Shown: piece after piece, positions 115 to 15,034 of the stretch | How the letters are laid out: the number at the start of each line of letters is the position of its first letter | How positions within the stretch are numbered: position 1 is the first letter of the stretch | Source of the DNA: a virus | Direction: 5' to 3' (one strand) | IMG/VR virus record: IMGVR_UViG_3300009285_006422 | Coordinates: 1-23,186 of that record | DNA: 23,186 bases | The notes under the pieces: generated by a model | The model's database searches: none | Told to the model about the DNA's origin: nothing | The model's input: only the letters and a program-made list of their open reading frames with translations | Translations under genes and position numbers: made by a program

Positions 115-303
115 GTGTTAACGATACTATATAGCTTTAGTGCGGGCCTGTTGGGTGCAGGCTGCGGGTTGGTGATTTTTACCTTGTGGCGGGACCACCA
201 GAGGGTCACGGCGATTTGGAACCTCCTGAGCCGCCAGCAAGTCGCGAATCAACCGACCGCAAACACGCAGCCGAAAATCGAGAATGGAGAGATAAAGAAG
301 TGA
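115..303 (+). CDS. Small single-pass membrane protein
   Basis: This 62-residue product starts at GTG 115, placed by a GGAGG ribosome site at about 104-108. Residues 2-24 form one hydrophobic segment rich in Gly, Leu, Ile and Val, with a short basic/polar region after it (WRDHQR). The C-terminal half is polar and Asn/Gln-rich. The stop overlaps the next gene's probable start as GTGA, suggesting translational coupling to the glycosyltransferase gene. No family is recognised. It could be a membrane anchor or accessory protein for the downstream enzyme, but only adjacency supports that. Confidence 0.6.
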   Translation: MLTILYSFSAGLLGAGCGLVIFTLWRDHQRVTAIWNLLSRQQVANQPTANTQPKIENGEIKK

Positions 304-3300
304 GAAGGGGGCCTTTGGAATTGAAAATTTATCAGCTAGATGTGACCTTGTTCTGCTCTGGCATGCCCATGTCGGGCGAGTCGATCCCGTCAGGCAAGGC
401 GATTGGCGGCAGCGAGACATGCGCTGTGCAGGTGGCGCAGACGCTCGCCAAGAAGGGCCATAGGCCGATTATCTTCTGCAACACAGAGCAGGCACATGCC
501 CGCGACGGCGTAACGTACATCCCGATAGGATGGGTGCAGCAGCCAAATGGTGGCGCGTTTCCGAAGGGGTTCCTGGACTACGCACGATCCACTCCGCACG
601 ACCTGATGATAGTAATGCGAATACCGGGCATCATGTCGTGGGAGTTTAAATCTAAAGTCAATTTGCTCTGGCAGCACGACCTGGCGACCAGGACGGGGCC
701 CTCCAACTTTCACCCGACGTGCTGGAACACGGATCGAATCCTGGTGATCTCCGAGTTCATGAAACGGCAGTACCGGCAGGTTCACGGCGGGCCGGACGAG
801 CTGTATCACGTCACGCGGAACGGGATCGACCTGGAGTTGATCGACTCTGTGCCGGAGCAGGAGCGAGATCGCTACAAGATCATGTTCACGTCAAGGCCGG
901 AGCGCGGCTTGGACATCATGCTGCGAGAAGTCCTTCCTCGCATATTGGCGAAGGAACCCAAGGCGCAACTCTACATATCCCGCTACGACGACGTGGCGAC
1001 ACTGCCTCTATATGAGGAGTGCGTCAGAATGACGGCGCAGTTCGGGGACCGCGTAGTGAATCTCGGCAACTTGGGCAAGATGGAGCTTTATAAGCACTAT
1101 AAGCAGGCGAGAATCTTTGCATACAGCTCTGTTTTTGAAGAGGTGTCTTGCTTGACTTATTCGGAATTCACTGCCTGCCGGGGCGTCTTCATCGGACCGT
1201 GGAAGGGCGCAGTGCCGGAGACCGCCGGGGATACTGGCATATTGATCCGGGATGACGGGAGCATCGGTAGGGTAGGTGACCCATTGGACGACGGCTTCGG
1301 ACCAGTCTCGGCGAAGTTCTGTGACCGGATGGCCGACGAGATTGTGGATCTCATCCGCAACGATGAACGGTGGGAGCGGCTATCTAAGGCGGGGCGCAAG
1401 CGGGCAGAGACAAGGACATGGGACGCGGTAGCGGACGACTGGATCGCGCTCACGCATCAGCTCATAGAGCAGAGGACTTCCGATCCCAAGCGCGTGCTGA
1501 AGCACTTCCTGGTCAACTCCGACGTGGTGGCGGCGCAGAAGTACGCCGAAAGGACGGGCGAGGAGAAGCTCAAAAAGTCCGCGCAGAAGTACATCGACCG
1601 CTTCGTCCCGTTCATGAACGCCCCGGAGGCGGAGCGAAAACAAGAGATAGCGAAATTTTATGAAGAGCGGAGCGGCGGCAACATTGCCAACTGGCAGACG
1701 GCGTTCTGGGCCGACCGGGAACCGCGCCTCCAGATTCTCCGCGATTGGATCGCGCAGCACAAGGGGGAGGTCGAGACGGTCCTCGACTTCGGCTGCGCAC
1801 ACGGGGGGTACGCCCGCGCACTTACCAACGCCCCTATCTCCCTCCGGGTCTTGGGCGTGGACGTGTCCCCCAGCCTTATCAGGTGCGCTAATGAATTGAG
1901 GGCGGGCAAAATGCCGGACGGGAGCCCGGCGTGCCTGCATCCTGAGAATCTTGAGTTCATAGTTGCCGATGAGGATACGGATATCATAGGTAACTTAAAT
2001 CTTAACGACTCGACTTTTTTTACAAATGAAAGCGGATTGATTGACCTTGAAAGAAAGTTCGATATGGTCGTTTGCATGGAAACAATCGAACATCTTCCCA
2101 ATGCCGAGGAGGTGGTCAAGAAACTGGAGCGCCATTGCAAGCCCGGCGGCTGGATGTGTTTTACTATCCCGCATGGTCATAGAGAAAGAGACGAGTTCCT
2201 GACTAAAGGGGTCGCGCCGGTCCACGTCCGCTCATTCGATAGGCACGATTTGATTGATCTGTTTGGCCATCGGGAGGGCTTTCAGATAATTGCCTTCTCT
2301 GATTTCTTGGAGTTGGATTTTGACCGGACCTTCGCCGGGTGGTTCATGGTCTTCTACAAGAACGACGGCAAGGAGATCGGCGAGATCGACTGGGAACGGA
2401 AGTTTTTCTTGCAGGGGCCGCGTGAAACCGTCTCGGTCTGCATGATAACGAACAACGCTGAAAGCACGCTGCACAGAACGATCAAGTCCGTGCAGAAATT
2501 GGCAGACCAGATTATCGTGGTGGACAACGGCCCGTCGGTGGACTCGACTAAGGCCATCGCGAGGATGTACACGGACGAGGTACGGGACGGAACGAGCCCA
2601 TTCTGGTGCTACGTCCATAAACAGAGGCATCACCCGCTTGAGATCGCGCCAGGGGTCTGCGACCCGGCGGGATTCGAGACGCCGAGAAACGAGTCCACAC
2701 AGGGCGCGTGGGGAGACTGGATTTTTTGGATCGACAGCGATGAGAGTCTGCTGAACTGGCAGCAAGTGTGGCAGTACCTCCGCCCGAACTCCTACCTCGG
2801 CTACGCAGTCAACCAGCACCACCTCTCCGTCGATCCGCCAGGGTCACTCAGGAAGGACATTCCCGTGAGGCTGTTCAGGAATCATAGGGGGATGAAATTT
2901 TTCGGCCTCGTTCATGAGCACGGCGAGCTAGCCATCAACGCCGGGGTCGGAAGCCACGTAGTCTCGCTCCCTATAGATATTCACCACGACGGCTACCTGA
3001 CGGAGCCGATACGGCGCGGGAGGTTCCAGCGCAATATCCGGCTGCTTGAATGCGATAGGCTGAAGTATCCCGATAGGCTTCTCGGCATTTACCTCTACGA
3101 CGTGCGGGACAATATTCATATGGCGCGGTACGAGATAGAGCGGAGCGGTGGGCGGCTCACCGAACAGGGGGCCGAGTACTGCCGTAAGACTATTAGTGCT
3201 TTTCGTCAACACTTCCTGGGCAAGGACATCATGCTCGCCCAAGACGGCATGATATACTATTCCGACGCACTCGCTATGCTCGGTTTAGGCATCGAGGTCG

Positions 3301-3449
3301 CGCTGGATATCGACGTGAAATTGCAAGGGGCGCACCTGAACGGCGGCGGACAGAGATTTAGGGTGATGGACAGGGAAGAGGCGAAAGTCGTGACGGAGCA
3401 AATACTCAGGCAGAAGTTCGGCCCATTTGAGGGCCGATATATCGCCTAA
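300..3449 (+). CDS. Trimodular glycosyltransferase (GT4-like) / SAM methyltransferase / GT2-like glycosyltransferase
   Basis: About 1049 residues. Residues 1-420 look like a GT4 (GT-B fold) glycosyltransferase: SRPERGLD near residue 197 and an E-x7-E type segment with FEEVSCLTYSEF near 279, followed by a GAVPE loop. Residues 480-670 are a class I SAM-dependent methyltransferase: motif I VLDFGCAHGG at 494 and the motif ETIEHLP near 594. Residues 710-1000 are a GT2-like (GT-A) domain: VSVCMITNNAE near 711 and a DSD metal motif at 812-814. The predicted job is assembling and methylating a glycan, perhaps on the virion, since it lies among head-tail genes. I prefer GTG 300 because it overlaps the previous stop (GTGA) and has GGAG at 286-289. 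TTG 321 (MKIYQ...) is an alternative. The open frame runs back to ATG 186, but that part only shadows the previous gene. Confidence 0.85.
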   Translation: MRRGPLELKIYQLDVTLFCSGMPMSGESIPSGKAIGGSETCAVQVAQTLAKKGHRPIIFCNTEQAHARDGVTYIPIGWVQQPNGGAFPKGFLDYARSTPHDLMIVMRIPGIMSWEFKSKVNLLWQHDLATRTGPSNFHPTCWNTDRILVISEFMKRQYRQVHGGPDELYHVTRNGIDLELIDSVPEQERDRYKIMFTSRPERGLDIMLREVLPRILAKEPKAQLYISRYDDVATLPLYEECVRMTAQFGDRVVNLGNLGKMELYKHYKQARIFAYSSVFEEVSCLTYSEFTACRGVFIGPWKGAVPETAGDTGILIRDDGSIGRVGDPLDDGFGPVSAKFCDRMADEIVDLIRNDERWERLSKAGRKRAETRTWDAVADDWIALTHQLIEQRTSDPKRVLKHFLVNSDVVAAQKYAERTGEEKLKKSAQKYIDRFVPFMNAPEAERKQEIAKFYEERSGGNIANWQTAFWADREPRLQILRDWIAQHKGEVETVLDFGCAHGGYARALTNAPISLRVLGVDVSPSLIRCANELRAGKMPDGSPACLHPENLEFIVADEDTDIIGNLNLNDSTFFTNESGLIDLERKFDMVVCMETIEHLPNAEEVVKKLERHCKPGGWMCFTIPHGHRERDEFLTKGVAPVHVRSFDRHDLIDLFGHREGFQIIAFSDFLELDFDRTFAGWFMVFYKNDGKEIGEIDWERKFFLQGPRETVSVCMITNNAESTLHRTIKSVQKLADQIIVVDNGPSVDSTKAIARMYTDEVRDGTSPFWCYVHKQRHHPLEIAPGVCDPAGFETPRNESTQGAWGDWIFWIDSDESLLNWQQVWQYLRPNSYLGYAVNQHHLSVDPPGSLRKDIPVRLFRNHRGMKFFGLVHEHGELAINAGVGSHVVSLPIDIHHDGYLTEPIRRGRFQRNIRLLECDRLKYPDRLLGIYLYDVRDNIHMARYEIERSGGRLTEQGAEYCRKTISAFRQHFLGKDIMLAQDGMIYYSDALAMLGLGIEVALDIDVKLQGAHLNGGGQRFRVMDREEAKVVTEQILRQKFGPFEGRYIA

Positions 3450-3469
3450 AAGAATTAGGGACAACTACC

Positions 3470-4333
3470 GTGCCGATAGATATTATAGGACAGGCCGCCA
3501 GGGTAGATATAGTCGGCCAGACGCAGCGGTTCCAGTCAGAGGGGCTGGAGAAGTTCTCGCTCGTCTCGACGGCGACGATCCCGGCCACGGTCCAGCACAT
3601 ACTATACAACACGGACGGGGCCACGCTCGCGCCCGTAGCCGTACAGTCCGGTCTAACCGTGACCGTCTCGGCGCTGGCGGCGAACGTGGGATCGGTCGGA
3701 CTATTTTACGTCAATCGCCAGATGCCGACCTCGGTCGGGTTCTACACCTACGAGTGGCGACTGTTCGGCTCCAGCGGGGCGTCGTCGGGAACTGTTGCGG
3801 CTAGCCTGTTTACACCCCTGCGCGGCGAGTTCGAGATATTCAAGACGGAGGCGGCGAGCTTCTTCACTTACGGCGTCAAGGAGGAGGTCATGCGGCGGGC
3901 GCGGCAGTTAGTCGGGCGCGGGGACATAAGCGAACGCGACGTGAGGCCGTTCATGGAGGCCGGGGACGGCTGGATAGACTCGAAGATCGGGAAGATCATC
4001 GGAGTCCCGCTGACCCCGGTTCCGTTCTCCGTGCGGGAGATGTCGAACCGCATGGCGATCTACTTCCTCTACAACGCATATTACAGCGGCCAGAAGAGCG
4101 ATGAGCCTCCGGCCACAGTCAGGCAGTTCGACAAGGACAACGAATTCCTGGACGGCGTGGTGGAGGGCAAGTGGGCGCTTGCTGGTAGCGGCGTGTCGTT
4201 CATCTTCGAGCAGCCCGTCTCCGTGATAACCGGCGGCACGGCGGACGGCAAGCCAGCGTTCGGCAGGAGCGACTGGGAGGACCAGCGAATAGATCCGAAC
4301 ATCCTGGACTTCGAGAACGACGAGAGGAGTTGA
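3470..4333 (+). CDS. Head-tail adaptor protein, DUF1320/Mu gp36-like, with an extra N-terminal domain
   Basis: 287 residues from GTG 3470, with AGGG at 3457-3460 as ribosome site. The C-terminal ~170 residues fit the DUF1320 (Mu gp36) pattern: a WIDSKIGKIIGVPLTPVPFSVRE stretch like the family's D-x-Y-L...PL..VP, a helical MAIYFLYNAYYS segment, then DKDNEFLDGVVEGKWAL like the family's D..x-x-L-x-x-v-x-x-G-k..L. These proteins join the connector to the tail. The first ~115 residues are Ser/Thr/Val-rich and probably all beta, a domain not usual in this family. It begins the connector block and is followed two bases after its stop by the next gene. Confidence 0.65.
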   Translation: MPIDIIGQAARVDIVGQTQRFQSEGLEKFSLVSTATIPATVQHILYNTDGATLAPVAVQSGLTVTVSALAANVGSVGLFYVNRQMPTSVGFYTYEWRLFGSSGASSGTVAASLFTPLRGEFEIFKTEAASFFTYGVKEEVMRRARQLVGRGDISERDVRPFMEAGDGWIDSKIGKIIGVPLTPVPFSVREMSNRMAIYFLYNAYYSGQKSDEPPATVRQFDKDNEFLDGVVEGKWALAGSGVSFIFEQPVSVITGGTADGKPAFGRSDWEDQRIDPNILDFENDERS

Positions 4334-7551: not shown

Positions 7552-8094
7552 ATGAAATTTTGTTCAAGATGTAAATTGGAAAAGTCAAAATCGGAGTTCA
7601 GCAAACATAGCCGATCTCCCGATGGGCTCAATTCTCAGTGTAAGCAATGTAGGAATCAAACTTGCCAAGAATCGCTCAATAGACATAGAGATCATCGCCG
7701 ATTATATCTCCATACTCGATATCACTCTAATAAAAGGGAACGATTGAAGCTAATAAAGCGGCGATGGAAAGAACGCCACCCTGATGAAGTACGACTGCAT
7801 AAACGAATATCACAACGGCGACGGCAGACCAGAATGATTGGCACCATCACCGCCAAGCAATGGAAGCAGATCCTTCTCTTCTATGGCCGCGCCTGCGCTA
7901 TTTGCCATATACCGGAGTCCGAGGTTCCCTTGACTATAGATCATTTTATTCCGATATCCAAAGGTGGGAATAACTATTGGTACAACGTATGGCCTCTATG
8001 TCTTTCCTGTAATTCAAAAAAGCGCGACAAGATGCCAACGGAATCTCAACCGCCGCATGTTGCGGTAATGCGAAGGACAGGGACTTTTGATTAA
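7552..8094 (+). CDS. HNH homing-type endonuclease (free-standing)
   Basis: 180 residues. The N-terminus has a zinc finger (C4xxC7, C30xxC33). The middle is strongly basic (residues 45-95). The HNH core follows: C115xxC118, DH at 130-131, then WPLCLSCN with C150xxC153. This core resembles the second HNH domain of the protein at 8907 (both have QWK-x-I-L-x-F-Y, DH-x-x-P-x-x-x-G-G-x-x-x-W, and WPLC-x-x-CN-x-K). The gene is clearly more AT-rich than the tail genes around it, consistent with a recent mobile arrival. It sits between whole genes and does not interrupt one. Its start context (TCTATGaaatt) resembles that of the chaperone gene at 8220 (TCTATGgaatt). Confidence 0.9.
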   Translation: MKFCSRCKLEKSKSEFSKHSRSPDGLNSQCKQCRNQTCQESLNRHRDHRRLYLHTRYHSNKRERLKLIKRRWKERHPDEVRLHKRISQRRRQTRMIGTITAKQWKQILLFYGRACAICHIPESEVPLTIDHFIPISKGGNNYWYNVWPLCLSCNSKKRDKMPTESQPPHVAVMRRTGTFD

Positions 8095-8099
8095 ACTTG

Positions 8100-8198
8100 C
8101 GCGGCATATCACCGGCGCTGCCGGTAGTAAAGGTGCATAGAGGCTAACGTGGCCAGGGAAGTCCTCTTGGTCTCCCGGTTAAAATCCGGGGTGCCGCG
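8100..8198 (+). other. Cloverleaf-like structured RNA candidate between HNH gene and chaperone
   Basis: A 99-base stretch folds on paper into four helices. P1 pairs 8100-8107 with 8191-8198 (8 bp, one G-U). P2 is 8111-8116 with 8120-8125 (6 bp, 3-base loop). P3 is 8139-8143 with 8163-8167 (5 bp). P4 is 8174-8178 with 8186-8190 (5 bp, loop TTAAAAT). P4 abuts P1 with no linker and has a 7-base loop, exactly like the T-arm/acceptor of a tRNA. I found no 5-bp/7-base anticodon arm and no encoded CCA, so it is not a standard tRNA. It may be a decayed tRNA, a leader structure, or part of the HNH cassette. Confidence 0.3.
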
Positions 8199-8219
8199 AT
8201 AAAAAGAGGGGAGATTTCT

Positions 8220-8702: not shown

Positions 8703-8907
8703 GTCCGACGCTGAGCGGCTCTGGTTCGACGTGAACGTGGCGCTCTTGAGTATGGCGAACGACATGGAGGCGGCGAGGGGAGAGCAGCAGAAGGAGCTTG
8801 GTGGCCCTATATCCAACCGCAGGCAGGCGCGGGTCGCGGCGGAGATCGCTAAGAGGCAGGTCGAGGAGATGGAGCGGGACGCGCAGGGGACTTGGAGCAT
8901 TAGATAA
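8220..8907 (+). CDS. Tail assembly chaperone, frameshifted fusion (gpGT-like)
   Basis: The overlapping frame that ends at 8907 is open only from 8587, after TGA at 8584-8586. From 8602 it reads FAGETPLLLDLVARRYGQRPSSLL..., a chaperone 'T' domain that makes sense only as a continuation of the 8220 frame. The first potential start inside it (GTG 8635) would cut this conserved helix. The shift is +1 (equivalently -2) relative to 8220, giving about 228 residues. The C-terminal part is helical and charged (QKELGGPISNRRQARVAAEIAKRQVEEMERD). Its stop overlaps the next ATG as TAATG. Confidence 0.75.
8598..8620 (+). promoter_or_regulatory. Programmed +1/-2 ribosomal frameshift signal
   Basis: Zero-frame codons are AAG TTT TTT CGC. 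A Phe tRNA on the second TTT can move +1 onto TTC (8602-8604), after which the conserved frame GCG GGG GAG ACC continues. One base later a perfect 6-bp stem, 8605-8610 with 8615-8620, closes on a GAGA (GNRA) tetraloop. Together they form a compact slippery site plus stimulatory hairpin. Confidence 0.6.
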
Positions 8908-9941
8908 TGGCCGAGCAAAAAACATTGGCAAGAAAACAATTCGGCGAATTTATATGCCAGAATCCTCATTGCCAGAAAACATTCAGCGGCTATCGAGGGA
9001 ATAAGAATCATTACTGTTCCAAGCGCTGTAATAAAAGGATTCATCCTCAATTACAGGAAAAAATATGTGAGCGATGCGGCAACGCCTTTATTATGAAGGC
9101 CACAACCAATGCTGGACGATTCTGCTCAATGAGGTGCTTTAAGAACCCCGCAAAGATTTGCCAACATTGCGGACAGTCATATAATAAAACAGCCCGCTAT
9201 TATTGTTCAAAACGATGTGAGGCGAAAGCAAAGACAAAGTCTTTAGCAGAACGGTTCTGGACAAAGGTTCAAAAAACAGAAGCATGTTGGCTATGGTGCG
9301 GGAATGTAAATAGGGCCGGATACGGAACTATAGGTGTTGTCGGTACGAAGACCGTATTGGCTCATAGAGTATCCTATGAACTAGCCAAGGAGCCAATTTC
9401 AGAAGGGCATCTCTGTTTACATACCTGCGATAATCCCCGTTGCGTTAGACCGGATCATCTCAAACTCGGAACGCAGTTAGAAAATGTAAGAGATATGCAT
9501 GAAAAGCAAAGAGCGTCAAAAGTTTATCGCGGACAATCGGTCAGGATGCGACAGTGGAAATTAATTCTTGATTTCTATAAATATCGCTGCGGTCTGTGTG
9601 TACGCAATGATATTCGGCTTGTTAAGGATCATTATTTACCGCTCGCTAGAGGAGGAAAGACGCATTGGACTAATATATGGCCGCTCTGCGAAGACTGCAA
9701 TAGAAAAAAGGCTTCGAGAATTATCGACAATCAGATACTTCCTCACGTCGAACCATTGAGACATATTATAGAATCATTTCAAAGCTCACGAGTACGGCGC
9801 GGTGTTTATTGGAATAATGATCGTCACGCTTGGAGAGCACAAATTTATTTGAACCGCAAAAATGTTCAGGTTGGAACATTCAAATTAAAGGCAGATGCTA
9901 TCGAAGCATTTCGTACCGCATCGCCAGAATTGACTATTTAA
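8907..9941 (+). CDS. Composite endonuclease: zinc-finger array, HNH_3, second HNH, AP2 domain
   Basis: 344 residues. Residues 17-104 hold three repeated zinc-finger units, each a Cys pair followed ~15 residues later by C-S-x-x-C (C54xxC57/C73...C77; C85xxC88/C100...C104). Residues 117-200 form an HNH_3 domain: FWTKVQKTEACWLW, GYG, AHRVSYEL, HTCDNPRCVRPDHLKLGT. Residues 216-270 form a second, different HNH: C228xxC231, DH at 241-242, C261xxC264. Residues 298-337 match the AP2 DNA-binding fold (GVYWNNDRHAWRAQI...VGTFKLKADAIEAF). ATG 8907 overlaps the chaperone stop (TAATG), so translation is probably coupled. The gene is AT-rich and lies exactly between chaperone and tape measure, a homing-endonuclease placement. 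Confidence 0.9.
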   Translation: MAEQKTLARKQFGEFICQNPHCQKTFSGYRGNKNHYCSKRCNKRIHPQLQEKICERCGNAFIMKATTNAGRFCSMRCFKNPAKICQHCGQSYNKTARYYCSKRCEAKAKTKSLAERFWTKVQKTEACWLWCGNVNRAGYGTIGVVGTKTVLAHRVSYELAKEPISEGHLCLHTCDNPRCVRPDHLKLGTQLENVRDMHEKQRASKVYRGQSVRMRQWKLILDFYKYRCGLCVRNDIRLVKDHYLPLARGGKTHWTNIWPLCEDCNRKKASRIIDNQILPHVEPLRHIIESFQSSRVRRGVYWNNDRHAWRAQIYLNRKNVQVGTFKLKADAIEAFRTASPELTI

Positions 9942-11665: not shown

Positions 11666-12235
11666 ACAACAAACTATATCAGATAATTTTAGATCGGGTT
11701 CTTCCGCATAGTATATTTGAAATATGACCGTCAGAGACTCTAAATTTTTTTGCCAACATTTTCGCTGTTACGATGTAAGGAATATGAAGTTTGCGAATCG
11801 TGCGAATATCATCGTCTGTAAGCCACCAGTGACGAATATGTCTACCTTTATTTATAGAATCCAGGGCATTATCTCTTTTTGTCCCCAAAAAAAGATGCTC
11901 GGGGCGGACACATGGCGGATTGTCGCAATGATGAAGCACGCACATGCCATTAGGGATAGGACCGTGATGGATTTGCCAGGATACGCGATGTGCTCCTCTA
12001 TTCTTTCCATCGTGAATCACCCCATAACCATCAAGAACCGTAGAACCAGTCCAAAGCCAACAATTCCTAGTCTTTTTAACTTTAATCCAAAATCGTTGTT
12101 CGAGCGTAAGCCCATGCCAACAAGCACGACTACAAAACTTGCAAGCTTCTTTTTTTATTGCGGATGGTTTTCTTTTGAATTCTTTCCCACATCTCTGACA
12201 ATTAAAAATCAGCATAGTCAAATTATACAACAAAC
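11666..12235. mobile_element. HNH cassette bounded by 9-bp direct repeats
   Basis: The reverse-strand HNH gene is framed by two copies of ACAACAAAC, at 11666-11674 and 12227-12235. They lie just outside the coding region, in otherwise short spacers between tape measure and distal tail gene. Removing the segment between them would leave an ordinary short spacer. They may mark a repair or insertion duplication, but a 9-bp A-rich match could be chance. Confidence 0.35.
11679..12215 (-). CDS. HNH_3 endonuclease with C-terminal helix-turn-helix, reverse strand
   Basis: 178 residues from ATG at 12215 (minus strand); the frame is open to TTG 12233 but the ATG fits the promoter. Residues 6-32 are a zinc finger (C6xxC9, C25xxC28, C32). 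Residues 42-118 are an HNH_3 core: FWIKVKKTRNCWLWTG, GYG, AHRVSW, HHCDNPPCVRPEHLFLGT. Residues ~132-172 (LTDDDIRTIRKLHI...AKMLAKKFRVSDGHISNILCGR) look like an HTH of the kind that ends many HNH homing enzymes. It is AT-rich and opposed to all tail genes. Its core is related to the first HNH of the 8907 protein and to the relic at 12932-13253. Confidence 0.9.
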   Translation of the reverse strand: MLIFNCQRCGKEFKRKPSAIKKEACKFCSRACWHGLTLEQRFWIKVKKTRNCWLWTGSTVLDGYGVIHDGKNRGAHRVSWQIHHGPIPNGMCVLHHCDNPPCVRPEHLFLGTKRDNALDSINKGRHIRHWWLTDDDIRTIRKLHIPYIVTAKMLAKKFRVSDGHISNILCGRTRSKII

Positions 12236-12251: not shown

Positions 12252-12860
12252 ATGGCAGCAACGAGAACAATCGTCTTTACACCCTCAGTAGTCGAACGAG
12301 AGGCAATAACCTATACCTCCGCGACCGGATTCGACAACACCGGCCTGGCGGCGTACTTCAACCGGGCGTCGAGGCCCGCATACCGATTCACGATACGCAT
12401 GGACGCGCTCACGAAGTCGCAGGCGGAATCGCTGTCGGCTCTCCACGCGACGCTTATGGGCGGCCAGTCCTTTTTCTGGGACGGCGGGCCGTGGGGCGAT
12501 ATCCAGAACATGAGCCTCGTGGGCGAGGGGGACTCGCAGCGGCGGCAGTTCTTTCTGGGGAATCGGAACGTAGGCGCTGGCTCTGTCTCGATGCAAACTT
12601 TGCGAGGGGCAGTAAGTTCCGCGTGGGCGGCCAACTCGGCGAACGGATGGCCTTACTCGATAACGGCGGTCGCAGGAGTGGTGACATTCGCCAACTCCAC
12701 GAACACGATTCCCGCGTCCGGGGACGACGTGATGGGAAAGTGGGGGTGCAATTACCGATGTCATTTTTCGCCAGGGGGAATAAAAATAACGAATCAACAC
12801 CGAGGCGTATATTCTGTAGAACTTGCAATTACCGATGTCATTTTTCGCCAGGGGGAATAA
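12252..12860 (+). CDS. Distal tail protein, DUF2460-like, with a duplication-altered C-terminus
   Basis: 202 residues from ATG 12252. The order of features fits DUF2460 proteins, which follow the tape measure in gene transfer agents and many siphophages: an N-terminal strand region, an aromatic YRFTIRMDALTKSQAESLSALHATLMGGQSFFWDG segment, the VGEGDSQRRQFFLGN signature (like G-x-GDG...FqL), and a late PASGDDVM. The end is abnormal. A 77-bp tandem duplication shifts the frame, so the protein finishes ...YSVELAITDVIFRQGE. With one copy removed it would be 200 residues ending ...YSVELELTETAYTG at TAG 12931. The altered protein may still work, as only the last ~10 residues change. Confidence 0.8.
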   Translation: MAATRTIVFTPSVVEREAITYTSATGFDNTGLAAYFNRASRPAYRFTIRMDALTKSQAESLSALHATLMGGQSFFWDGGPWGDIQNMSLVGEGDSQRRQFFLGNRNVGAGSVSMQTLRGAVSSAWAANSANGWPYSITAVAGVVTFANSTNTIPASGDDVMGKWGCNYRCHFSPGGIKITNQHRGVYSVELAITDVIFRQGE

Positions 12861-12900
12861 AAATAACGAATCAACACCGAGGCGTATATTCTGTAGAACT
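12747..12900 (+). repeat. Exact 77-bp tandem duplication inside the distal tail gene
   Basis: Copies at 12747-12823 and 12824-12900 are identical by eye. 77 is not a multiple of 3, so the second copy is read out of frame and ends the gene early at 12860. Exact identity implies a very recent event, or an assembly error. Confidence 0.9.
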
Positions 12901-12931
12901 TGAGTTAACGGAAACGGCTTATACTGGCTAG

Positions 12932-13253
12932 AGCGGATTATCGCAATGATGACAAATAAAGAGGTCGGATGGAATTGGCCCATGAACTATAGAATAGGAA
13001 TATCTATGAGCAGGCATCATTCGACCATTAACAGACAAATAGCCATAGCCGCTCGTACTTTTGGAACCTTTCCAAATCCAACAAGAAATTACATCGGCCT
13101 TTTCAACCTTAGCCCAAAAACGGATGATAGGATTGATGCGCGAAGAACTTGGCGCTCGATGATAACATATAGCCGAGCAATATTTATGTGCACAATGTCT
13201 GTTGCTTGGTGCCTCAGAAAGTTCTCATGACAATAATCGCATATAAAATCCAT
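12932..13253 (-). pseudogene. Broken HNH_3 endonuclease relic, reverse strand
   Basis: On the minus strand, ATG 13253 begins MDFICDYCHENFLRHQATD, the first half of a zinc finger. The expected continuation HKYCSAICYHR is present in another frame, so there is a frameshift near 13200. The frame then reads FWAKVEKADVISCWIWKG, GYG, PAHRYSYSIVHGPIPS and HHCDNP, the first part of an HNH_3 domain closely like the gene at 11679. Homology stops abruptly after CDNP at about 12934, three bases from the distal tail stop codon; the rest of the domain is missing. It is therefore both frameshifted and truncated, yet keeps a near-consensus promoter. Confidence 0.85.
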
Positions 13254-13281
13254 AGCGATATTATAATGATAAGATCGCTAT
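13252..13281. promoter_or_regulatory. 8-bp inverted repeat around the relic's -10 box
   Basis: ATAGCGAT at 13252-13259 and ATCGCTAT at 13274-13281 are perfect inverted copies, separated by 14 bases that contain the -10 hexamer. This is an operator-like layout. It could instead form a hairpin in rightward transcripts; no T-tract follows, so it is not a standard terminator. Confidence 0.4.
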
Positions 13282-13288
13282 ATATCAA
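13260..13288 (-). promoter_or_regulatory. Promoter of the HNH relic, leaderless geometry
   Basis: On the minus strand: -35 TTGATA (13288-13283, 5 of 6), 17-base spacer, perfect -10 TATAAT (13265-13260), then 6 bases to ATG at 13253. The geometry equals that of the other two reverse genes in the window. Confidence 0.7.
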
Positions 13289-13296
13289 GAGGATTT

Positions 13297-13353
13297 ATGT
13301 CTGAAATCTATTCGGTGGAATTGAAATTAACCGAAACAGCTTTCACGGGGTGA
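13297..13353 (+). pseudogene. Second, diverged copy of the distal tail gene's 3' end (18 codons)
   Basis: ATG 13297 to TGA 13353 encodes MSEIYSVELKLTETAFTG. The last 14 residues match the original end of the distal tail protein (YSVELELTETAYTG, 12 of 14 identical). The DNA differs mostly at third codon positions, so this is a related allele and not a fresh copy. An AGAGGA site at 13288-13293 could allow translation of the fragment. The stop overlaps the next gene's ATG (TGATG), the arrangement expected if this copy is the one native to the downstream genes. Confidence 0.75.
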
Positions 13354-13463
13354 TGCCTTGGGTAATGAAATGCCCGAAATGCGACTCAGACATAAGCAAG
13401 GAAGACCCGATGGACTTGTGGGTGTGCTGGAAATGCGGATGGGCAAGAAAGGACAGGATGTAA
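13353..13463 (+). CDS. Very small zinc-ribbon protein (36 residues)
   Basis: ATG 13353 overlaps the preceding stop as TGATG. The product MPWVMKCPKCDS...VCWKCGWARKDRM has two CxxC/CxxC-type knuckles (CPKC and CWKC), a complete minimal zinc ribbon. Nothing else is in the chain. It opens the lysis cassette, one base before the next ATG. Function unknown; many phages encode such ribbons. Confidence 0.65.
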   Translation: MPWVMKCPKCDSDISKEDPMDLWVCWKCGWARKDRM

Positions 13464-13464
13464 T

Positions 13465-13695
13465 ATGACTGGAGTAGAGCCTCAGACGGTATTTGAGGGA
13501 TACATCAAGGGGAACATAGAGGAGCTGCGACGCGAGATGCGTGACGTAAAACAATCTATAATGGCCCTTGAAGAAAAAATCGTTGACATGGCAAATCAGG
13601 CGTCTTTTTCTCGCGGCAAAATGATCGGATGGGGCAGCGCATTCGGCGTCATGGGCGGCATCAGCGCTGCAATAATAAAAGCCCTTTGGAGGTGA
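13465..13695 (+). CDS. XhlA-like holin-associated protein
   Basis: 76 residues. Residues ~10-45 form a charged amphipathic/coiled-coil helix (GNIEELRREMRDVKQSIMALEEKIVDM). Residues ~53-74 are one hydrophobic, Gly-rich membrane segment (MIGWGSAFGVMGGISAAIIKALW). This helix-then-anchor layout and length fit the haemolysin XhlA/holin-accessory family. It starts the lysis gene run and is followed by a multi-pass membrane protein with a perfect ribosome site. Confidence 0.65.
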   Translation: MTGVEPQTVFEGYIKGNIEELRREMRDVKQSIMALEEKIVDMANQASFSRGKMIGWGSAFGVMGGISAAIIKALWR

Positions 13696-13698
13696 TTG

Positions 13699-14046
13699 AT
13701 GCGTGATAGATATAGGCGGGCAAAGAAATACTTCCTAGCCAGAAGCAGGGATGCCCTCGCAGAAGTTTATAGGCTCAAGTGGGCCATAGGAATAAGCATC
13801 GGCGCGATGTTCCTGCTTGATGCCTATGGGATAAATCCAATGAACCGTTGGGCATTGCTGGCGCATAAATTCTCTACCATCACATTGGCCGTGATAGCCG
13901 CTCACCTTATCCGCCGGGAGATTTTCCCGTACATAGACTTATCCACAGCGTTGACGAGCCGAGACTGGGGGCACGCTGTTGGCTCGGCCATAGTAGTTTC
14001 AATTTTGATGGCGGCGATAATTTTGGGAGTCGCTCTTGGATTATAA
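13699..14046 (+). CDS. Multi-pass membrane protein, probable holin
   Basis: 115 residues from ATG 13699, with a textbook GGAGGTGAT site at 13688-13696. TTG 13696 is in frame but lies inside that site. Three membrane segments are visible: ~29-46 (WAIGISIGAMFLLDAYGI), ~55-74 (LAHKFSTITLAVIAAHLI) and ~95-115 (GSAIVVSILMAAIILGVALGL). The N-terminus is very basic. Size, topology and its place between an XhlA-like protein and a lytic enzyme make it the best holin candidate. The end overlaps the next gene by 11 bases. Confidence 0.65.
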   Translation: MRDRYRRAKKYFLARSRDALAEVYRLKWAIGISIGAMFLLDAYGINPMNRWALLAHKFSTITLAVIAAHLIRREIFPYIDLSTALTSRDWGHAVGSAIVVSILMAAIILGVALGL

Positions 14047-14674
14047 AAAGACCGCCGTATTTATAACGATAACTATTGCGCTGCTGATAGTGACGTTCTT
14101 GCTATCACGCGGGATACTCTATGCACATAAGAATGGGAGAATTGTCCCTCCTAGAGCGGCGCAATACCGACCTACAGTAATACGAGAGGTTAGATATTAT
14201 TGGGGATTTAGAGAGAATCCCTCGACTTTTCTTTCTCAGATTCACCAGGAGTCCGGCTTTAGAGAGGGCGCTAAGAGCGCCTTTGCCAGCGGCTTGACAC
14301 AATTCACGCCGGGGACCGCCGAATGGATTCAGAAACTTTATGCTAAGGATCTGCGGGAGACATGCCCGACTAATTCTGGCTGTCCATTAAATCCTAAATG
14401 GGCCATAAGAGCAATGGTAATGTACGATAAAAGACTGTGGGACCGATATCCATTTACGAGCGGAGATGACCGCTTTGGATTTACGCTCTCCTCTTATAAT
14501 GGGGGAAGTGGCTGGATAGATAAGGAACGACAAGCGGCGGCGCAGATGAATAAAGAAAGTAATAAATGGTTCAATGCTGTTGAGAAAACTTGTCTCCGTG
14601 CCAAATGGGCCTGCGATGAGAACAGGCAGTATCCCCGCAACATACTCTACAAGTGGAGGCATCACTACGAATGA
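14036..14674 (+). CDS. Membrane-anchored lytic transglycosylase (SLT/GH23 type), endolysin candidate
   Basis: 212 residues from TTG 14036, preceded by GGGAG at 14025-14029. Residues 5-27 are a signal-anchor (TAVFITITIALLIVTFLLSRG). The SLT motif follows: FLSQIHQESGF with the likely catalytic Glu72, then SAFASGLTQFTPGTAEW (family GLMQ...P-x-TA), and later LSSYNGGSGW (family A-YN-G). It would cleave peptidoglycan between MurNAc and GlcNAc. The N-terminal anchor suggests Sec-dependent export with later release, as in SAR endolysins. Several Cys in the C-terminal part could form disulfides in the periplasm. Confidence 0.85.
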   Translation: MDYKKTAVFITITIALLIVTFLLSRGILYAHKNGRIVPPRAAQYRPTVIREVRYYWGFRENPSTFLSQIHQESGFREGAKSAFASGLTQFTPGTAEWIQKLYAKDLRETCPTNSGCPLNPKWAIRAMVMYDKRLWDRYPFTSGDDRFGFTLSSYNGGSGWIDKERQAAAQMNKESNKWFNAVEKTCLRAKWACDENRQYPRNILYKWRHHYE

Positions 14675-14855
14675 TAAGTTTTTCTTAGGTCAGCGCGTCA
14701 GGGTAGGCATTAAGCACTGGCTGAGATCGAATGAAGCGGGCACCATAATAAAAATAAACGGTAAGTCTAGTCATCCATACCTCGTCGAGTTCAAACGGGT
14801 TTTTGTTGGCGGCGGGATAGATGGCAATAGGCTGTGGTGCGATGAGATTCAGTAA
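14616..14855 (+). CDS. Small beta-rich (KOW/SH3-like) protein, start uncertain
   Basis: The meaningful part is FFLGQRVRVGIKHWLRSNEAGTIIKINGK...YLVEFKRVF...NRLWCDEIQ, which resembles a KOW/SH3-like barrel. ATG 14616 or 14574 would overlap the transglycosylase gene. The attractive ATG at 14671 (ATGA overlap with the previous stop, GGAGG at 14655-14659) is out of frame with this domain and stops after five codons, next to a T5 run. Either a base was lost or gained there, or the start lies upstream at 14616. Function unknown. Confidence 0.55.
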   Translation: MRTGSIPATYSTSGGITTNDKFFLGQRVRVGIKHWLRSNEAGTIIKINGKSSHPYLVEFKRVFVGGGIDGNRLWCDEIQ

Positions 14856-14890
14856 TTGTGAACGTGGAAAAAGACTGAACGGAGATATTT

Positions 14891-15034
14891 ATGTTTGAAG
14901 CGATAGCATCCTTCTGGCACGAGACGGTTTTCTGGCTGATGATTATCGGTTGGCTAATCGTCTGTTATGATCACGCCGACAAGGTGCGAGCTATTTTCGA
15001 ATGGGCTATGACGAAGATTAAGACCGAGAAATGA
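14891..15034 (+). CDS. Small single-pass membrane protein (47 residues)
   Basis: ATG 14891 has GGAGA at 14881-14885. The product has one hydrophobic segment, about residues 10-27 (ETVFWLMIIGWLIVCYD), followed by a basic helix (HADKVRAIFEWAMTKIKTEK). It ends in an ATGA overlap with the spanin gene. Position and topology fit a small holin or antiholin, or a lysis accessory; no family is certain. Confidence 0.6.
   Translation: MFEAIASFWHETVFWLMIIGWLIVCYDHADKVRAIFEWAMTKIKTEK

Follow-up and report, generated by a model that had tools for sequence, protein, structure and literature searches.

The window (the whole stretch of DNA analyzed here, a 23,186-bp linear virus record) encodes a putative distal tail protein whose gene has two versions of its 3′ end, with a relic of a homing endonuclease gene between them (Table 1). 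Residues 40–186 encoded by the body of this gene aligned with positions 38–193 of the 205 in the DUF2460 profile (PF09343; E = 0.005) at a score of 16.8 bits, which is below the curated cut-off of 30.4, and the position of the body in the tail module agrees with a DUF2460 distal tail assignment. Four HNH-type genes or relics are located within the tail module (7552–8094, 8907–9941, 11679–12233, and 12932–13253), and the two HNH genes on the plus strand of the window have a related C-terminal HNH domain in common (score 102). Holin-like and endolysin genes are also found inside this module (13465–15034), between the distal tail and hub genes, and have a lower GC3 than the tail genes. Elsewhere in the window, a gap 3′ of an HNH gene (8095–8219) contains GGTTAAAATCC and paired arms that appear tRNA-like by eye (ARAGORN reports no tRNA), and positions 186–3449 encode a 1087-aa protein comprising a family-4 glycosyltransferase, a methyltransferase, and a family-2 glycosyltransferase.

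Table 1. Features of the distal tail gene locus in the window and of two comparable loci in other phages
Feature	Position	Strand	Remarks
Intact HNH_3 endonuclease gene	11679..12233	-	Flanked by tape measure and distal tail genes; relic belongs to the same family
DUF2460-like distal tail gene body	12252..12746	+	Between tape measure and hub genes
77-bp duplication, first unit	12747..12823	+	Exact; in frame with body (..CNYRCHFSPGGIKITNQHRGVYSVEL)
77-bp duplication, second unit	12824..12900	+	Exact; out of frame with body
First gene end, YSVELELTETAYTG and stop	12887..12931	+	Candidate cassette-borne replacement 3′ end; AT-rich like the HNH genes, unlike the body
HNH_3-family homing endonuclease relic	12932..13253	-	Antisense to tail gene; frameshifted internally and lacking the C-terminal part of the HNH motif
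Second gene end, MSEI-YSVELKLTETAFTG and stop	13297..13353	+	Candidate displaced native 3′ end
Small zinc-ribbon gene	13353..13463	+	Start overlaps stop of second end; assigned from sequence
cta39025, mirror-image case	L027 (MW202476.1) 2325-3560	HNH antisense	HNH stop at end of displaced fragment
Jada, end-replacing HNH insertion in macro-domain gene	L102 (MZ820094.1) 1742-2391		HNH frame ends inside displaced native fragment

The original prediction held that the 3′ end of the tail gene occurs twice, with stops at 12931 and 13353, and both places were confirmed; the second end proper covers positions 13309–13353. The two ends are identical at 31 of 45 nucleotides and 12 of 14 residues. The degenerate pattern YSVELxLTETA matched twice in the window and in none of 100 shuffles, and the BLOSUM62 score of the second end was 63, compared to a maximum of 30 over 300 shuffles. 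Coding differences between the ends are concentrated at third codon positions (9/12; 2, 1, and 9 differences at codon positions 1, 2, and 3, P = 0.004), indicating that both versions diverged as working protein ends rather than as a decaying duplicate, and supporting the earlier proposal that the ends come from different lineages.

The TGA of the second end overlaps the ATG of the zinc-ribbon gene (TGATG, 13351–13355), which suggests that the zinc-ribbon gene is the original downstream neighbor, and the junction looks as the original downstream border of the tail gene would. The same overlap, together with an ATG start after an AGAGG-like site, would also suit an 18-codon leader gene (MSEIYSVELKLTETAFTG) that is functional and has been retained to couple its translation to that of the zinc-ribbon gene. 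However, a leader would not need residue identity of this degree to a tail gene end, and the displaced ends in two other phages (Jada and cta39025, described below) show no leader role. We therefore regard a leader gene as very improbable.

The region between the two ends matched positions 3–28 of the 46 in the HNH_3 profile (PF13392) at 17.8 bits, which does not reach the cut-off of 24.8, and was assigned to the HNH_3 family because of its matches to phage HNH proteins (41%–49% identity, E down to 2e-16). No open frame runs through both the zinc-binding N-terminus and the HNH domain, as a frameshift lies between the two parts and the relic is truncated after CDNP. The profile match, phage homologs, and truncation bear out the earlier description of a truncated HNH relic between the ends. 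The HNH domain was also correctly described as being cut beside the stop of the first copy, since the stops of the relic and of the tail gene overlap in a common CTAG palindrome (12928–12931). A group I intron or intein was rejected. Rfam scans gave no match to an intron family, and a stop codon parts the first end from the relic, so the gene is not rejoined by splicing. Duplicated gene ends were also sought around the other HNH genes of the window, including the intact gene at 11679–12233, and none were found.

Base composition changes abruptly within this region. GC content drops near position 12750 from 61.6% (GC3 75%) to ~41% (GC3 31%), with the best composition change point at 12750 (2-lnL interval 12724–12782). 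From there through the relic, the sequence retains ~41% GC, which is similar to the three intact HNH genes of the window (40%–44%) and unlike the body of the tail gene. The GC3 of the first end differs from that of the body (Fisher P = 2e-6). The second end is AT-rich too (GC3 7/14; P = 0.06 versus the body, for a shorter end), and hence cannot be paired with the GC-rich body with confidence, which we counted against the interpretation of the locus as an HNH cassette developed below.

An exact tandem duplication of 77 bp is located between the body and the remainder of the first end. Because 77 is not a multiple of 3, the body is out of frame with the first end, and the ORF starting at 12252 stops, as assembled, at 12860 (ending in ...YSVELAITDVIFRQGE). 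Without one of the 77-bp units, the gene would have the right length for a 200-aa protein that ends at 12931. The two-ended tail gene of the original prediction thus stood with regard to its ends, but not with regard to a first end in frame with the body as assembled, the 77-bp duplication having been missed. This difference in frame was also counted against the cassette interpretation.

The duplication could, with somewhat better than even probability, be an assembly artefact, in which contigs were joined at 12823/12824 and a 77-base overlap was left untrimmed, giving a false repeat or mixed strains. The repeat is exact, and its unit equals a k-mer length that is common in a widely used assembler. 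Moreover, the reading frame would be open were it not for the repeat, which coincides with the composition break. Across the ~630 kb of loci examined, no other exact tandem repeat of non-simple sequence has a unit of >21 bp. A literature search for tandem assembly artefacts of k-mer length returned nothing usable. Nonetheless, the 77-bp duplication may be genuine, having arisen with 2 bp of microhomology; if so, it would adjoin the putative cut site proposed below. On balance, we somewhat favor an untrimmed overlap at a strain fork over a real mutation. Any such artefact is limited to the 77-bp repeat and the junction with the body. The join lies to the left of both ends and of the relic, and so cannot have created them. 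Assembly chimerism was accordingly rejected as the origin of the two ends, and the artefact does not compete with a cassette interpretation of positions 12887–13353.

The original prediction preferred to explain the locus as a recombination scar, whereby an illegitimate exchange joined a complete tail gene to the HNH remnant, second end, and lysis genes of another phage. Such an exchange would be consistent with the change in composition across the region, with a relic cut exactly at the tail gene stop, and with lysis genes that differ in GC3 from the tail genes. However, this would require that, in the phage contributing the right-hand part, an HNH gene was already present ~15 codons inside the tail gene, and that arrangement is itself the cassette state. 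For this reason, the two-ended anatomy was sought in other phages, in a small survey of one HNH family that covered 61 distinct HNH_3 loci, each including both flanks, in phages and IMG/VR contigs. Duplicated gene ends across the HNH gene were detected at 3 of the 61 loci (scores 147, 81, and 66; next best 52), where the 99th percentile of a cross-locus control was 50 and one low-complexity control pair reached 67. The three loci, at each of which a nuclease lies between two diverged ends of its target gene, are those of the window, siphovirus cta39025, and Streptomyces phage Jada, and the HNH gene is intact in the latter two. In cta39025, 21 codons of the 5′ end of a gene are present on both sides of an intact antisense HNH gene, and 14/22 differences between the copies are at third positions.

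In Jada, an intact HNH gene (gp168) comes after a macro-domain gene and before a second copy of the last 29 codons of that macro-domain gene, with 23/29 differences between the two ends at third positions. This case can be tested because close relatives without the insertion exist. Phage Gilson carries a single, uninterrupted allele of the macro-domain gene, the end of which is identical to the displaced end of Jada at 87/87 positions and to the in-frame end of Jada at 58/87. The displaced end of Jada thus matches the empty allele of a relative, unlike its in-frame end. Identity between Jada and Gilson is perfect over 431 bp to the left and 753 bp to the right of the ~609-bp insertion. Phage Forrest has the same insertion as Jada, and the in-frame end of Jada is 86% identical to the gene end found in another lineage (phage Kenrey). 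Hence, the HNH gene of Jada entered together with a foreign end, whose use kept the reading frame complete, and the native end became displaced. In phages MeganTheeKilla and Phredrick (L104 and L105, 1064–1600), other small genes, none of them HNH, follow the macro-domain gene, and the junction between this gene and a downstream rIIA-like gene looks like an insertion hotspot.

That two unrelated phages have this layout together with an intact HNH gene, one of them as a clean insertion, argues against a recombination scar, which we consider unlikely. It is less probable than the alternative that the original prediction had placed second, a cassette carrying a spare 3′ end, which is favored by the comparison of Jada and Gilson and by the two cases with an intact HNH gene. 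The original prediction had proposed that a two-ended arrangement around an intact HNH gene, if carried by many relatives, would indicate a stable cassette and not a scar. Such an arrangement was found in other phages and in other genes, but the searches yielded no relatives of this phage in which it could occur.

Close relatives of the phage were sought in IMG/VR using the tail protein, the 77-mer, the J-like protein, the endolysin, the YSVELxLTETA pattern, and the zinc ribbon (which alone is too short as a protein query), and none were recovered. Searches of GTDB genomes with the HNH alignment and the J-like protein also identified no relative, nor did a search of cultured phages with the tail protein, up to E = 10. 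Relatives of the J-like protein in cultured phages share only ~25% identity with it. Relatives with a single uninterrupted tail gene followed by the zinc ribbon, which the original prediction suggested looking for, were not found in the collections searched. An empty or intact allele of the tail gene was thus not recovered from any relative, which we likewise counted against the cassette interpretation, and the insertion in the window is proposed by analogy.

Based on its anatomy and on this analogy, the locus in the window is probably the decayed footprint of an end-replacing HNH homing cassette. In such a scenario, an HNH nuclease would have introduced a break into the distal tail gene, near the YSVEL codons and ~15 codons ahead of the stop, and this break would have been repaired from another phage carrying the nuclease gene beside its own version of the 3′ end of the gene. 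The result would have been a body continuing into a foreign 3′ end and stop, followed by the HNH gene and then, beside the zinc ribbon, by the native 3′ end, now displaced. The tail gene would remain complete because the cassette supplies a new ending, which presumably lacks the cut site. Later, the nuclease gene would have lost its C-terminal part and gained a frameshift. The 3′ end of the HNH gene abuts the displaced fragment in Jada and cta39025, whereas it abuts the first end in the window. The first end of the window could therefore also be the native one, and this difference also counts against the cassette interpretation.

Comparable arrangements have been described outside phages. WHO elements of Torulaspora and Lachancea yeasts home into FBA1, where they substitute their own version for its 3′ end, and the old one persists as a fragment (PMC7282813). 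As proposed for the window, a nuclease gene is located 3′ of a target with a replaced end, the old end lies beyond the nuclease, and the nucleases decay to pseudogenes (PMC7282813). The WHO nucleases, however, are LAGLIDADG intein-like proteins fused to a zinc finger that target a yeast nuclear gene, while those of the phage cases are HNH_3; the nuclease of the window is thus not a member of the WHO family proper. In addition, cleavage and resistance of the new end were shown for WHO6 only (PMC7282813), and one of the phage cases replaces a 5′ end. The mORFs of fungal mitochondria (Allomyces and Glomus; atp6, atp9, cox2, and nad3) similarly combine a gene body, a foreign C-terminal end, an endonuclease ORF, and a displaced native end, where the native end matches relatives and the inserted end is diverged (PMC3630166). 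They differ in having LAGLIDADG or GIY-YIG nucleases, in residing in mitochondrial genes, and in that the inserted end and nuclease ORF are sometimes in phase with the gene (PMC3630166).

Among phages, the free-standing seg and mob genes of T4-type genomes are likewise nuclease genes located in or near conserved genes, include HNH members, and spread by double-strand break repair with co-conversion of flanks (PMC2988022). However, these are described as inserted between genes or as splitting a gene so that two polypeptides result, and neither "duplicat" nor "fragment" occurs in the text of that review (PMC2988022). ShiLan-type hidden HNH insertions in phage methylase genes also place an HNH within a phage gene without an intron or intein, but are described as being read through in frame with the host gene, and the abstract of that report mentions no spare end (PMC11855218).

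No account of end replacement in phages was found in our literature search, in which coverage of subscription journals was thin. As a rule, a homing nuclease that lands inside a gene depends on an intron or intein, or else the gene is split. A nuclease that brings a spare gene end avoids introns, inteins, and gene splitting alike. It appears reasonably likely that phages carry a general class of end-replacing HNH cassettes with spare 3′ or 5′ ends, which swap the ends of both structural and metabolic genes between lineages and leave the old ends behind. With Jada and Gilson, a pair of cultured phages is at hand for a direct test of this idea. The same solution in yeast, in fungal mitochondria, and in at least three phages would constitute convergence. 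If true, these cassettes would allow mosaicism to arise within genes by a route that is independent of the similarly working systems of yeast and fungi, and end replacement would explain some of the mosaic breakpoints within phage genes.
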